From positions 62,001-126,000 of the forward strand of contig NZ_BSYI01000012.1 of assembly GCF_030270585.1 (NCBI RefSeq): DNA of 64,000 bases, written 5' to 3'. This document shows, piece after piece, positions 21,749-62,002 of this stretch; within the stretch, counting starts at the first letter, position 1, and every line of letters starts with the position of its first letter. The notes under the pieces were generated by a model. It ran no database searches. It had not been told where the DNA came from and worked only from the letters and a program-made list of their open reading frames with translations. The position numbers were made by a program, and so were the translations under genes. This DNA comes from Paralimibaculum aggregatum. GTDB taxonomy: Bacteria > Pseudomonadota > Alphaproteobacteria > Rhodobacterales > Rhodobacteraceae.

Positions 21749-22012
21749 ATCTTCCTCCCCCATGCCATGGGTGTCCCACCGCGTCGGCCGGCCGGTGGGC
21801 TGTTGTCTCCCGCGCCGCCCCGGGGGGCGGGCTGCGGGGTGCCGGCAGGGGGAGAGGCTAGGCGGGGCGGGTAACGCCAGTGCGCCGCCGGCCGGGAGGA
21901 AATGTAACTTTTTGTAAACGGGGCGCCGCGGGGCGCGATTCCGGCCCGCGGCGGGCCTCGGGCGGGGCAGAGCCGGCTCGACCGGCGGGCCTGCCCGTGG
22001 CTATGCTCGCGC

Positions 22013-37664: not shown

Positions 37665-38213
37665 GCACGGCCGCCCGAGCCGCACGTCGTGCAGCGGCGC
37701 CCTCCGGCCGAAGCGGCCGCCGGTTCCGCTGACATCCGGGGGTCCGGGCATCGCGTCACCGCGGCGGCTGCGCTGGCCGCGGGCGCCATCCGGAGCTGGC
37801 CGCGGACGCGATCCGGGCGGGGCCCGGAGCAGGGATCGCCCGCCGCACCGCGAAGCAGGAAGCCGCCGGGATCGCCAGGCAGACCGACGCGCGGCCCGAG
37901 CGGATCGCCGAGGCAGACGGCTCCGGCGTCATCGCGGCCGATGAGCAGCGGATCGGCAAGCTGGCGCGGGGCCGCCCGGCGCTGACCGATCAGATGCGGA
38001 AAGCGGCCAACCCGCCGCACGGCTTCGTGGGAATGCGCGTTCGCTTTCAGGAAAATCGCTGGAAGATCCGGGAGGGCGGGCAGCTCACGCTCCGCCGGAT
38101 GGGGCTGCAACCGGCCTCTGCCGATCCCGCGCCATGCGAGCGGGAAGGCGGCCTTCGGACCTCGAAAACCACCTTGCCGTTCAACATGTGAGCGGCACTC
38201 GACATGTCTGGGG
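37665..38213. other. Gap of about 550 bp without recognised gene
   Basis: Follows the MarR gene and ends at the left attachment repeat. Several frames are open. One plus frame reads from near 37796 (Ala/Arg-rich) through MRKAANPPHGFVGMRVRF to a stop at 38189-38191. No family, ribosome site or promoter supports it, so it may be decayed sequence next to the integrated element. Confidence 0.5.
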
Positions 38214-38235
38214 GAAGAATGGTGCCGGTGAAGGG
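38214..38235. other. Left attachment repeat (attL/attR-type copy)
   Basis: Identical over 22 bases to 41938-41959 (GAAGAATGGTGCCGGTGAAGG plus G). It is a free-standing copy of the tRNA-Thr 3' end without the rest of the tRNA. Bases after it differ (CACCG versus ACTCG), which fixes the right border of identity. Confidence 0.85.
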
Positions 38236-38400
38236 CACCGATTTTCCTTCTCATAGCGACTCACAACAGAACCAGATATCTGTTTTGAAACAGAAATTTA
38301 CGGTTCCCTAGGCAACCGAGCTGGCGCATATTTGAGCATGGTTTCGCATTCTCCGGGGTGGGCTGAAAGGTGGGCCCCGGAGAGGTGGAGGACCCGAACT

Positions 38401-39543
38401 GTGCTCATCAACGCGCTCTCTCAGATGAAAGCTAAGCACCTGCCCGAAGGTAAGCATGCCGACGGTCAGGGGCTCTGGCTCGTGAAGCGCAGCAAGCTGT
38501 CAGGAAAGTGGATCCTGCGCCTCACGATCCACGGGCGGCGCCGGGAGATGGGGCTCGGCCCGTGGCCAGATGTCTCGATCGCGGAGGCGCGGGGCCGCGC
38601 GGAGGATGCCCGACGCCGCGTGCGGGGCGGCGACGACCCGATCGAAGAGCGCGCGGCCAGGCGCCTGCGCGCCAAGCGCCTGACCGTCGAGGAGGCTATC
38701 CACGGATGCTTCGAAGCGCGCCAGGCCGAACTCAAGGCTGACGGCAAGGCCGGCCGCTGGCTCTCGCCACTCGCCGTTCACATCATCCCGGCCATCGGGG
38801 AGGTCGCGATCGAGGATCTCGACCAGCACGTGATCCGGAAGGTGCTCGAGCCGATCTGGCACGAGAAGCCCGACACCGCACGCAAGGCGATGAACCGTCT
38901 GAACCTGACGCTCAAGCACGCCGCCGCCCTTGGGCTCGAGGTCGACATGCAGGCAACGATGAAGGCGCGGGCCCTCCTCGGCAAACAGCGCCACACGGTC
39001 GAGCACGTTCCCTCGATCCCCTACCGGGAGGCGCCGGCCTTCTACCGCATGCTCTCCGGCAAGAGCTTCTTCTCCTGCCACGCGCTGCGCTTTCTGATGC
39101 TGACGGTCGCGCGCACGAGCGAAATCCGCTTCGCCCTCAAGGATGATCTCGTCGACGACGTGCTGGTCATCCCGCCTGAGCGCACCAAGACGGGCAATGA
39201 GCACAGGATCCCGCTGAGCACCGAGGCGCTCGACCTCATCGCACAGACCAGGCGGCTGCATGACAGCGACCTTCTCTTCCCGTCTCCTAAGGGCAAGCCG
39301 ATGTCGGACGCGACCATGGCGCGCTTCATGGAGCGCGAAGGCTACGAGGCGCGCCCCCACGGCTTCCGGTCGACCTTCCGCACCTGGGTGGAGGAGTGCA
39401 CTGACGCCCCTTACGAGGTGAAGGAGGCCTGCCTCGGTCACATCGTCGATGGCGCGGTGGTCCGGGCCTACCAGCGCTCTGACCGCCTTGAGCGTCGCCG
39501 GGAGTTAATGGAAAGCTGGTCTTCGTTCCTTACCGGCTCATGA
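38401..39543 (+). CDS. Tyrosine recombinase / P4-like integrase
   Basis: About 380 residues from a GTG at 38401 with GGAGG nine bases upstream; an ATG at 38338 would extend it. The N-terminus has the arm-binding DUF4102 domain (HADGQGLWLVKR, EMGLGPWPDVSIAEAR). The catalytic half shows Arg I in TVARTSEIRFAL, HGFRSTFRTW (His-x-x-Arg), LGHIVDGAVV and the nucleophilic Tyr in AYQRSD near the end. Integrates at tRNA ends, consistent with the flanking tRNA-Thr repeats. A GGGGTGGGC...GGTGGG element upstream (38355-38380) has a relative at 41867-41890 and may be an integrase arm site. Confidence 0.92.
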   Translation: MLINALSQMKAKHLPEGKHADGQGLWLVKRSKLSGKWILRLTIHGRRREMGLGPWPDVSIAEARGRAEDARRRVRGGDDPIEERAARRLRAKRLTVEEAIHGCFEARQAELKADGKAGRWLSPLAVHIIPAIGEVAIEDLDQHVIRKVLEPIWHEKPDTARKAMNRLNLTLKHAAALGLEVDMQATMKARALLGKQRHTVEHVPSIPYREAPAFYRMLSGKSFFSCHALRFLMLTVARTSEIRFALKDDLVDDVLVIPPERTKTGNEHRIPLSTEALDLIAQTRRLHDSDLLFPSPKGKPMSDATMARFMEREGYEARPHGFRSTFRTWVEECTDAPYEVKEACLGHIVDGAVVRAYQRSDRLERRRELMESWSSFLTGS

Positions 39544-39600
39544 GGCTGTCCTAGCCAATCGCGCAAACGCCAGTGCATTCGGAATGAGGCGTCGATCTGG

Positions 39601-39637
39601 ATGCGCATCTTGACGCGCACAACTATGCGCATATTCT
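39601..39637 (+). promoter_or_regulatory. Promoter and twin palindromic operators of ccdAB
   Basis: The self-complementary octamer ATGCGCAT occurs at 39601-39608 and 39625-39632, 24 bases apart. Between them is TTGACG (39610-39615), with TATTCT (39632-39637) 16 bases downstream as -10. Toxin-antitoxin operons are typically autorepressed by the antitoxin bound to such paired sites. Confidence 0.6.
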
Positions 39638-39662
39638 CGGTCCATATGTCGTCGGAGGTATG

Positions 39663-39899
39663 ATGCAACCCCATTCGTTGCCTAAGAAGCCGACCAATCT
39701 CTCGCTTGACCAAGCCCTCTTGCAGGAAGCTCGGGAACTCGGGGTGAATCTCTCTCAGGCTGCGGAGCACGGTCTCCGGCAGGCCATCGCCAGCGCAAAG
39801 GCCGCTGCCTGGAAACGCGAAAACCAGGTTGCTTTGGAAAGCTCCAATGCCTGGGTCGAGAAACGCGGCTTGCCGTTGGAGCGGTTTCGCCGCTTCTGA
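39663..39899 (+). CDS. ccdA: CcdA-like antitoxin
   Basis: 78 residues. Ribbon-helix-helix N-terminus (KKPTNLSLDQALLQEARELGVNLSQAAEHGL) that binds DNA as a dimer, and a CcdA C-terminal tail (AWKRENQVALESSNAWVEKRG, ending LERFRRF) that wraps the toxin. The start at 39663 is preferred to 39660 because GGAGG lies at 39654-39658 and needs spacing. Its TGA overlaps the ccdB ATG by one base. Neutralises CcdB and autoregulates the pair. Confidence 0.93.
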   Translation: MQPHSLPKKPTNLSLDQALLQEARELGVNLSQAAEHGLRQAIASAKAAAWKRENQVALESSNAWVEKRGLPLERFRRF

Positions 39900-40198
39900 T
39901 GGCCCGGTTCGACGTCTACGCAAATCCGGACGGCGCCGGCTATCTGCTGGACGTGCAGACCGATCTCCTGGATGGGTTGAACACCAGAATCGTCGTCCCA
40001 CTGCTGCCCGCAAACGACGCGCCTTCTCCGGCCCAGCGACTGAACCCGGTGTTCGAGATCGTCAATCAAAGACACGTCATGGTCACGCAGTTCATAGCGG
40101 CAGTCCCACGTGCAATTTTGAAGGAGCCCGTAACCACGCTCGCCGATCACGACGCCGAGATCACCGGGGCGCTCGACATGGCCTTCTTTGGCTTCTGA
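39899..40198 (+). CDS. ccdB: CcdB-like gyrase-targeting toxin
   Basis: 99 residues, the family length. Family landmarks: ARFDVYANPDGAGYLLDVQTDLLDGL at the start, VVPLLPANDAPSPAQRLNPVF in the middle, the MVTQFIAAVPRAIL segment and the end AEITGALDMAFFGF. CcdB poisons DNA gyrase; the last residues are the gyrase-contact region (Phe-Phe-Gly-Phe here in place of the classical Trp-Gly-Ile). Stabilises the element against loss. Overlaps ccdA by one base. Confidence 0.93.
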   Translation: MARFDVYANPDGAGYLLDVQTDLLDGLNTRIVVPLLPANDAPSPAQRLNPVFEIVNQRHVMVTQFIAAVPRAILKEPVTTLADHDAEITGALDMAFFGF

Positions 40199-40368
40199 TG
40201 CAGTCTCGATTTCTTGAGGCGGAGGCCAAAGCCGTGGAAATTCCGACTGTTTTAGTCTGATTTCCTGACTACGAATCTGATGCTGATGGAGCAGCAGACA
40301 AAAAGTCTGTGGGTGTCAGTTCCGATCGATACAGTCTCCTTGCGCTGTCGGACGTTCGGAGAAGGCGG

Positions 40369-41175
40369 TCAGCGGCCGGCGTCGGCCAGGCGGTCGAGGC
40401 GCAGGCGGTGTCGGCTATCGGTCAGCCGCTGCGCGCTGCCGATCACAGCGCCCAGCACCCCGAGTCCTGTGGCGCCGCCGATCAGGAACATGATCAGCAG
40501 CTGGTACTTCACCGCCTCCTGCGGGTCGACGCCCGACAGGATCTGCCCTGTCATCATGCCCGGCAACGAGACGACGCCGGTCGCGGCCATCGCGTTGATA
40601 ATCGGAGTGAATCCACTCCGGAGTGCCCGCCGGATCATCGGCAGCATCGCCTCGAGGCTGGTGCGCCCCAGCAGGAGCTGCGCCTCGATGGCGCGGCGCT
40701 CGGCTGCGAGTGTCGCGTGCAGCGTGTCGAGGCCGAGGCTCACCCCGGTCATGGTGTTGCCGAGTATCATGCCGAAGATCGGCAGGGCATATTGCGGCGA
40801 CCACCAGGGCTCGGGCTGGATCTGGCTGGTCAGCGCTACGAGGGTGACGATCGAACCCGCCGCAGTCATCGCGCCCGCGCCGAGCGTGTAGCCCCAGAGC
40901 CCGGCGAGACGGCTCTGCTGGCGCGCCAAGATCTCATAGCCGGCAAACCCCACCATCGCGCAGGCAAGGGCCAAGGTCAGCCAGGGAGAGCCGGCGGCGA
41001 ACACCGCGCGCAGAACCAGCCCGATCATCAGGAGCTGAACGATCATCCGGAGCGCCGCGATCAGGAGCTGACGCTCGAGGCGCAGCCTGAGCGTGATCGA
41101 CAGCACCGCATTCAGCGCGAGAAACAGCGCGGCGAGGACAATGTCCCAGATAGAGAGCTCGATGTAGCCGGTCAT
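40369..41175 (-). CDS. fetB: FetB-like ABC transporter permease (UPF0014)
   Basis: 268 residues with seven or eight membrane helices; family landmarks RLERQLLIAALRMIVQLLMIGLVL and QILSGVDPQEAVKYQLLIMFLIGG, and GMILGNTMTGVSLGLD. FetAB exports iron or raises resistance to oxidative stress in E. coli. Starts in an ATGA overlap with fetA. Lies inside the tRNA-Thr element as its cargo. Confidence 0.92.
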   Translation of the reverse strand: MTGYIELSIWDIVLAALFLALNAVLSITLRLRLERQLLIAALRMIVQLLMIGLVLRAVFAAGSPWLTLALACAMVGFAGYEILARQQSRLAGLWGYTLGAGAMTAAGSIVTLVALTSQIQPEPWWSPQYALPIFGMILGNTMTGVSLGLDTLHATLAAERRAIEAQLLLGRTSLEAMLPMIRRALRSGFTPIINAMAATGVVSLPGMMTGQILSGVDPQEAVKYQLLIMFLIGGATGLGVLGAVIGSAQRLTDSRHRLRLDRLADAGR

Positions 41176-41774
41176 AAGGCGACTCCAGGCAGGGACACGA
41201 GCCGACCGCGCTCGACGCGATGGCGCCCGGCCGAGAGCCGGGCAGGCTGCGCTTCGTCATGGGTCACGAGAAGCACGGCGACGCCTCGCTCGCACTGGTC
41301 CCGGATCAGCGCCTCGACCAATCCGGTCGCGTGCTCGTCGAGCGTCGCGGTCGGCTCGTCGAGCAGCAGCGCATCGGGCCGGTTCGCCAGCGCCCTGACG
41401 ATTGCGAGACGATGCCGCTCGCCGGAGGAGAGCCGGGCGACGTACCAGTCGAGCGCCTCCGGCAGCTCGACCGCTTCGAGGAGGCCGGCGAGTTCCGACT
41501 CCGCATCGAAATGATCGCAAACCCGGTCGGCCCACCAGCCGCTCTCGGCAGGAACCAGCGCCACGCGCCGGCGCCATTCGGGGGCCGGCATCGAGGCCCG
41601 CTCCTGGACGTCGAGCGTCACTGTCCCCTCATTGGGGTCGAGATCGACGATCGCGCGAAGAATCAGGGACTTGCCCGAGCCCGAGGGGCCAAGCAGCGCA
41701 GATATTTGTCCCCGCTCTACGGCCAGGCTCACCGGGCCGATCAGCGGTGTACGAAGATCCTCTATGGCAAGCAT
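41172..41774 (-). CDS. fetA: FetA-like ABC transporter ATP-binding protein
   Basis: About 200 residues (a GTG nine bases upstream would add three). Walker A LLGPSGSGKSLIL, signature RLSSGERHRLAIVRAL, Walker B ALLLDEPTATLDEH, switch His in VTHDE. Length is typical of the FetA group, slightly shorter than classical ATPases. Coupled to fetB; first gene of the transporter pair. Confidence 0.9.
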   Translation of the reverse strand: MLAIEDLRTPLIGPVSLAVERGQISALLGPSGSGKSLILRAIVDLDPNEGTVTLDVQERASMPAPEWRRRVALVPAESGWWADRVCDHFDAESELAGLLEAVELPEALDWYVARLSSGERHRLAIVRALANRPDALLLDEPTATLDEHATGLVEALIRDQCERGVAVLLVTHDEAQPARLSAGRHRVERGRLVSLPGVAL

Positions 41775-41937
41775 GCGCTGCACTCTGGCAGCTATGCCGC
41801 TAAACTGCCATGCAAACGAGTGAGCCCCGGTATGAGCCTACAAACTTTGGTTCGGGACAGCCTCTATTGGGGTGGGCCAAGAGGTGGACCCAAAACTCGC
41901 CCCCCAGGAAATTGCATTCTTTTCAGGTTCTTGCTGA

Positions 41938-41959
41938 GAAGAATGGTGCCGGTGAAGGG
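41938..41959. other. Right attachment repeat, overlapping the tRNA-Thr 3' end
   Basis: The 22 bases identical to 38214-38235. Bases 41944-41959 are the last 16 positions of the tRNA gene (read on the minus strand, including CCA); the remaining six lie just beyond its 3' end. This is the usual type of integration site for P4-like integrases. Confidence 0.85.
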
Positions 41960-42019
41960 ACTCGAACCCCCGACCCCATCATTACGAATGACGTGCTCTA
42001 CCAGCTGAGCTACACCGGC
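41944..42019 (-). tRNA. tRNA-Thr (anticodon CGT)
   Basis: A 76-base cloverleaf with encoded CCA: acceptor GCCGGTG/CACCGGC, D-arm GCTC/GAGC, anticodon stem CGTCA/TGATG with loop TTCGTAA (anticodon CGT, reading ACG codons), T-arm GGGGG-TTCGAGT-CCCTT. It is intact and its 3' end is the integration point of the adjacent element. Confidence 0.96.
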
Positions 42020-61936: not shown

Positions 61937-62002
61937 TTACCATTTGTTTCCCATTCAGCCGCAAAGTGAGTCGAGATTTACGAGACAGCATGAGGTTCCC
62001 CG

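Follow-up and report, generated by a model that had tools for sequence, protein, structure and literature searches.

The tRNA-integrated islands catalogued in Islander show size peaks at 13.6 and 39.9 kbp, and have a tyrosine integrase between the intact tRNA gene and a displaced 3' fragment that keeps the same orientation (PMC4383910). In the sections of the published reports on which we draw here and below, the attP of ICEMlSym R7A is described as having five arm motifs (TGKTGGTATC) in 283 bp, with intS just downstream of attL, and the authors' model is that IntS bound to attP prevents the transcription of intS (PMC11963761). For the KplE1 integrase IntS negative autoregulation has been shown, and TorI is its recombination directionality factor (PMC2951348). 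Complete phage-inducible chromosomal minimalist islands (PICMI) were reported, in the part of the study considered, only in Vibrio genomes and always at fis (PMC10803314). Here we describe an element of about 3.7 kb that occupies a tRNA-Thr(CGT) gene of the α-proteobacterium Paralimibaculum aggregatum, within a stretch of 64,000 nucleotides (positions 62,001 to 126,000 of contig NZ_BSYI01000012.1) that we call the window. Judging from its sequence, it is quite probably a complete but reduced integrative element, stripped down to both attachment (att) ends and an integrase gene, together with a plasmid-type ccdAB pair and the genes of a FetAB-like exporter. Its features, in window coordinates, are the following:

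38214-38235, no strand assigned: distal attachment repeat, made up of a displaced tRNA-Thr 3' fragment and 6 further nt (identical over 22 bp to 41938-41959).
38357-38375, plus strand: putative int-side paired arm-type motif GGTGGGCTGAAAGGTGGGC, 121 bp from the core (score 14/14; 0 of 200 shuffles as good).
38401-39543, plus strand: tyrosine integrase gene (int), 380 aa (Pfam Arm-DNA-bind_3, Phage_int_M and Phage_integrase).
39660-39899, plus strand: ccdA antitoxin gene, 79 aa (Pfam CcdA, E 1.1e-26, full profile).
39899-40198, plus strand: ccdB toxin gene, 99 aa (Pfam CcdB, E 2.4e-30, full profile; 1-nt overlap with the ccdA stop).
40369-41175, minus strand: fetB-like permease gene (UPF0014), 268 aa (Pfam UPF0014, E 5.8e-78).
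41172-41783, minus strand: fetA-like ABC ATPase gene, 203 aa (Pfam ABC_tran, E 1.1e-25).
41871-41889, plus strand: putative tRNA-side paired arm-type motif GGTGGGCCAAGAGGTGGAC, 54 bp from the core (score 14/14; 0 of 200 shuffles as good).
41938-41959, no strand assigned: tRNA-proximal attachment repeat, overlapping the tRNA 3' end (22-bp exact match to 38214-38235).
41944-42019, minus strand: tRNA-Thr(CGT) gene, the intact integration target (ARAGORN; Rfam RF00005, 66.9 bits).

The two ends of the element share a 22-bp sequence, GAAGAATGGTGCCGGTGAAGGG, as their longest exact match; it is present at 38214-38235 and 41938-41959, and its right copy is composed of the 3' 16 nt of tRNA-Thr and 6 nt downstream. 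When both strands of the window were scanned, the 16-nt core was found in exact form only in these two repeats, and a scan allowing up to three mismatches gave seven other matches, each with three. A chance origin of the repeat is in practice excluded, there being no third exact core in the window. Five genes lie between the repeats, int, ccdA, ccdB, fetB-like and fetA-like, all of them above the Pfam cut-offs, and excision would give a circle of 3,724 bp. The GC content of the element is 0.641, as compared with 0.732 and 0.783 in the 5-kb flanks. A preliminary description of this DNA, made from the letters alone, had placed 22-bp repeats at both ends of a unit at tRNA-Thr with an integrase and CcdAB inside; the exact repeat, the ARAGORN and Rfam calls and the Pfam matches bear this out. 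As in the islands of Islander, the tyrosine integrase gene lies between an intact tRNA gene and, downstream of it, a displaced piece of the tRNA 3' end that points the same way; the difference is the size of the element, 3.7 kb, which falls below both peaks of that catalogue (PMC4383910).

The likely start codon of int is the GTG at 38401, a correction of the preliminary description. In an alignment with 12 relatives (47-55% identity) the residues R229, K254, H311, R314, H338 and Y348 are invariant, and we take them to be the catalytic residues of tyrosine recombinases. Integrase matches, among them the 12 aligned, were obtained in 86 of the 147 genomes searched, its own included, and the 80 loci compared here, designated by L numbers, are the best 80 of at least 565 relatives from a scan of species genomes; among the relatives listed the top match belongs to Albimonas sp. 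CAU 1670 (80% identity). A core resembling a tRNA 3' end (TGGTG...) precedes int, in the window orientation, in 65 of the 80 loci. The other 15 have no antisense core at the tested spacing; four of these have a sense core, which gives the classic order in which the tRNA immediately precedes int and has the same sense, eight the arm motif only (one with a short flank), and three neither. A tRNA gene with a matching core was present downstream in 12 of the 80 loci, within a fetched flank of up to 10 kb, always (12/12) in the window orientation. The position of the integrase near the distal repeat, pointed out in the preliminary description, is the rule of the family rather than an oddity. Five other integrase-like matches exist in the genome of P. 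aggregatum; the three examined are all cut by contig ends and have no arm pair.

Each end of the element has one copy of a paired motif, GGKGGRY-N5-GGKGGRY, one before int and the second between the cargo and the tRNA gene, and these two are the only perfect pairs in the window on either strand. Both pairs were present in all of the 14 elements first mapped, that of the window included; the distance to the core is 54-57 bp for the tRNA-side pair and 118-129 bp for the int-side pair. At 27 of these 28 ends no shuffle out of 200 scored as high as the real sequence, the exception being the int-side pair of L096, a weak one (score 12, matched by 8 of 200 shuffles). Given that the motif was drawn by eye from the regions upstream of int and from 14 tRNA-side ends, this first test is not independent. 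The independent tRNA-side ends, those of L239-L242, L243, L055, L059 and L060 and the tRNA-Phe end of L053, show the pair at 54-56 bp in nine of nine cases. Apart from the window element, both pairs occur in 21 of 21 mapped elements with a distal int, namely 13 of those first mapped, L239-L242, L243, and three islands of the window's own integrase clade (L055, L059 and L060). On the int side the spacing is mostly 117-130 bp (123-130 in the set of L239-L242 and L243, counted from the repeat start), with L060 as an exception at 107. Over 65 loci the distance from the core to the int-side arm falls in two classes, 117-120 bp (40 loci) and 128-130 bp (25 loci), that differ by approximately 10 bp, close to a full turn of the helix, a difference that would follow from a need for arms and core to lie on the same face of the DNA. 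As for background, 35 of 110 matches of score ≥13 lie outside int leaders (1.38 Mb, one strand), and some of these are tRNA-side pairs.

The paired motifs are probably the arm-type sites of the integrase, as predicted from their sequence and placement. The possibility that the motif is just the ribosome-binding site of int was rejected as a sole reading because the tRNA-side copy holds a fixed distance from the core with no int gene after it. Neither the paired motif nor its spacing was found described in the open literature, including the accessible parts of PMC2951348, PMC4383910, PMC11476347, PMC11963761 and PMC10803314; most subscription journals were outside the scope of this search, which is no proof of novelty. 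With ICEMlSym R7A the element shares integrase arm-type motifs in attP, putative in our case, but it has two paired motifs at fixed spacing, a distal int, and no recognised recombination directionality factor or transfer gene (PMC11963761). As in KplE1, where the integrase promoter overlaps the att region, such an overlap is predicted here, whereas intS of KplE1 adjoins the argW tRNA gene and the KplE1 arm sites share a TAAA motif (PMC2951348). PICMI are likewise small islands, with a direct repeat upstream of int as the far end and the target gene at the other; they have AlpA, a primase and the fis site, in contrast to the window element, which has no AlpA-like match and no primase and whose target is tRNA-Thr (PMC10803314).

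To the left of the element, some 550 bp (37665-38213) have a host-like GC content of 0.738, and the frame at 37754-38188 matches no Pfam family. A tandem array further left in the window was considered and discarded; there is no further exact core, and the sole other arm-like match of score ≥13 is at 21822 (score 13).

The use of the same target in other bacteria was examined in the tRNA-Thr(CGT) loci of 11 relatives, fetched from among 60 other genomes searched. The preliminary description had proposed to look for related elements in other tRNA-Thr genes, and two were found in the same tRNA-Thr(CGT) gene, both beside hemY: one of 14 kb in L046 (genome G014) and one of 6.8 kb in L096 (Roseovarius litorisediminis). 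On this sequence evidence the tRNA-Thr site is used repeatedly. Among the 11 loci the arm pair occurs in two (L042 and L046), and L048 has a distant integrase (28%); in seven, neither an arm pair (within 400 nt) nor an integrase homologue was seen, and the sequence of L043 ends after 91 nt. A MarR gene, considered as an anchor for synteny, has matches in 40 of 61 genomes, its own included, a figure that refers to presence anywhere in the genome and not to a position beside tRNA-Thr. In L042, which belongs to the same genus, the arm pair (score 13) is found 54 bp past the same tRNA-Thr (L042:7708), and probably marks another island of the same family.

In an integrase tree of 92 rows the window falls in a clade, here called A, with L053-L067 and L151 (17 rows, support 100/98), as the sister of L053 (support 100/97). 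Four other islands of this clade were sized by means of the second core copy: L059 (50.4 kb) and L060 (39.4 kb), both at tRNA-Leu(GAG); L055 (25.0 kb), which has no ARAGORN call at its right end because the contig stops within the tRNA-like sequence there; and L061 (34.6 kb), with the classic, reverse geometry. L053 has two core copies on two contigs, one of them at tRNA-Phe, where a perfect arm pair lies 54 bp away, and would measure at least about 37 kb if both copies are the ends of one element. The island of L055 (15 open reading frames of ≥200 aa scanned) includes Replic_Relax, a weak match to a type IV coupling protein (T4CP)-like family, and restriction-modification families; that of L060 (21 frames scanned) includes Replic_Relax and T4CP-like families as well as DncV, Cap15, ThiF and E2, a set that we take to be a cyclic-oligonucleotide-based antiphage signalling system (CBASS). 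Replic_Relax marks mobilization. Near its int, L057 encodes a T4CP-like protein and a serine recombinase. No satellite-type family is among those listed for L055 and L060, and no Replic_Relax, T4CP-like or defence family was detected by Pfam among the five genes of the window element. Clade A islands (L053-L067) thus have in common with the window element the integrase clade and, where mapped with a distal int, the cores at tRNA 3' ends and the paired arm motifs, and differ from it in their size, 25-50 kb in the four measured as compared with 3.7 kb, and in the mobilization-type and defence genes of L055 and L060. Since the other measured islands are larger and the two scanned contain mobilization-type genes that the window element does not have, the latter would be a reduced island of a partly mobilizable clade. 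In L056, L061, L066 and L067, also of this clade, the core is inverted relative to int, as in the classic geometry.

An AlpA-like gene is present within 3 kb after int in 64 of the 80 loci. It was not found in L053-L066 (L064 and L066 have almost no downstream sequence), and L067 shows only a weak match on the opposite strand; outside clade A, L094 and L123 have no match, in flanks of just 0.8 and 1.4 kb. Each of the 18 elements mapped outside clade A gives an AlpA-like match, with the caveat that the profile was seeded from nine of them; the weakest match is that of L108 (E 0.0046), and Pfam names AlpA or HTH_17 in L084, L092, L108 and L240 and nothing in the short gene of L242. A search of the window element in six frames gave no match at E<10. 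The absence of AlpA looks like a trait of clade A and does not speak for a recent loss, and given that the gene is missing across nearly all of the clade, its absence from the window element is not in itself proof that an excisionase was lost. The element has its own integrase and att sites, as integrative and mobilizable elements do, and no relaxase or other mobilization gene was detected among its five genes at E 0.001. Because no excisionase or relaxase was recognised, its movement probably needs help in trans. Pfam detected no phage structural family in the five genes, and of the four proteins scanned against PHROGs, Int, CcdA and CcdB matched entries for integrase or unknown function and FetB matched none.

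Some elements of the sister clade resemble satellites. DUF3987 is found in L074, L085, L108 and L114, and DUF7146/Toprim in L114, L108 and L074; L108 and L074 also encode type IIG restriction enzymes, and L107 an IetS-like protease. L074, L085, L108 and L114 are at tRNA-Leu(CAG) and combine the same integrase type with an AlpA-like/HTH_17 gene, a PICMI-like content outside Vibrio and fis. L093 (9767-20795) is an 11-kb element with the same att plan and with capsid and tape-measure genes, like a capsid-forming satellite.

Regarding the cargo, the adjacent genes of a CcdA-family antitoxin and a CcdB-family toxin form a CcdAB module by family, whose activity is a prediction. CcdB poisons gyrase. 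Matches to CcdB occur in 30 of 149 genomes of the bacterial family, its own included, and among the plasmid matches listed the closest kin are alphaproteobacterial, with up to 69.7% identity in a 4.7-kb Paracoccus plasmid. The designation of the other two genes as FetAB in the preliminary description stands at the level of family (UPF0014 and ABC ATPase in Pfam) and not beyond, both proteins being far below the cut-offs of the NCBIfam equivalog models (127.7 bits where 410 are required, and 96.3 where 292 are). E. coli FetAB exports iron, and the exporter encoded here may likewise act on a metal. FetB matches are present in 6 of the 149 genomes, its own included, the other five at 47-72%. No match to CcdA, CcdB or FetB (E 1e-4) was found in any of the 80 integrase loci, within the fetched flanks.

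These data bear on other explanations of the element. It might never have been a larger island, an integrase with a cargo cassette being a stable minimal design that moves by itself, in which Int alone integrates and excises and ccdAB provides maintenance. A complete int and both arm pairs agree with this proposal, as do five relatives of the sister clade that measure only 4.2-4.6 kb; nevertheless, all five have an AlpA-like match (that of L242 not named by Pfam), and the four others measured in clade A are far larger, for which we regard it as unlikely. The same sizes qualify the statement of the preliminary description that the element is unusually small, which holds within clade A and fails outside it, where those five are part of 18 mapped elements. 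In a more specific version, Int would integrate and excise without a directionality factor, steered by two arm pairs at fixed helical phase, and ccdAB would kill the cells that lose the circle, replacing excision control; we find this decidedly unlikely. The element could also be a defective phage satellite, akin to PICMI or to phage-inducible chromosomal islands (PICI), that lost its replication and regulation genes, considering that in the sister clade AlpA-like, DUF3987 and DUF7146/Toprim genes, and in one element capsid and tape-measure genes, accompany the same integrase type and att plan. The window integrase is outside that clade, however, the scanned clade A islands L055 and L060 hold Replic_Relax and T4CP-like families with none of satellite type listed, and the window element itself has no satellite-type family, so that we judge this origin quite unlikely.

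The preliminary description had left two options, a minimal integrative unit or a plasmid-derived fragment. Both att repeats, an integrase with its invariant residues and the paired motifs at both ends speak for the former. A plasmid fragment, or a small plasmid, captured at the tRNA gene by the integrase would account for the closeness of ccdAB, among the plasmid matches listed, to alphaproteobacterial pairs; only ccdAB points to plasmid kin, though, while the relatives of the recombination module sit at tRNA genes in genomes, and int, core and arms follow the island family. Moreover, no replication gene was found among the five genes, and no plasmid record covers 80% of the element. We give this explanation hardly any credence. 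Several observations weigh against our preferred interpretation of a reduced integrative element. The left-flank genes tested have no homologue beside tRNA-Thr in 11 of 11 relatives, so that there is no empty site in the same context; clade A depends on a midpoint root, in a tree that warns of long outgroup branches, and its size sample consists of four islands besides the window element; L061, with its reverse geometry, shows the arm motif (score 12) at one end only; and clade A may use an excisionase that was not recognised.

For a reduced integrative element of this kind, the order in the circular attP would be arm pair, 54 bp, core, 121 bp, arm pair and int. The N-terminal Arm-DNA-bind_3 domain of Int would hold the arm pairs while its catalytic domain holds the core, and recombination by Int would take place between the core and the tRNA-Thr(CGT) 3' end, the copy brought by the element rebuilding the tRNA gene. 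Integration would leave int at the tRNA-distal end, as the gene is situated beyond the core. The int-side arms immediately precede the start codon, and Int attached to them probably represses its own expression. As an addiction module, ccdAB would likely penalise the loss of the element; excision and transfer probably need trans-acting factors.

The element is of a known kind and unusually bare, which makes it a handy test case for the minimal needs of an integrative element. The att plan is the most reusable result of this analysis: it marks both ends of mapped islands of 3.7-50 kb, some of them with defence systems, and it offers a testable model of the intasome and a means to delimit islands in Alphaproteobacteria.

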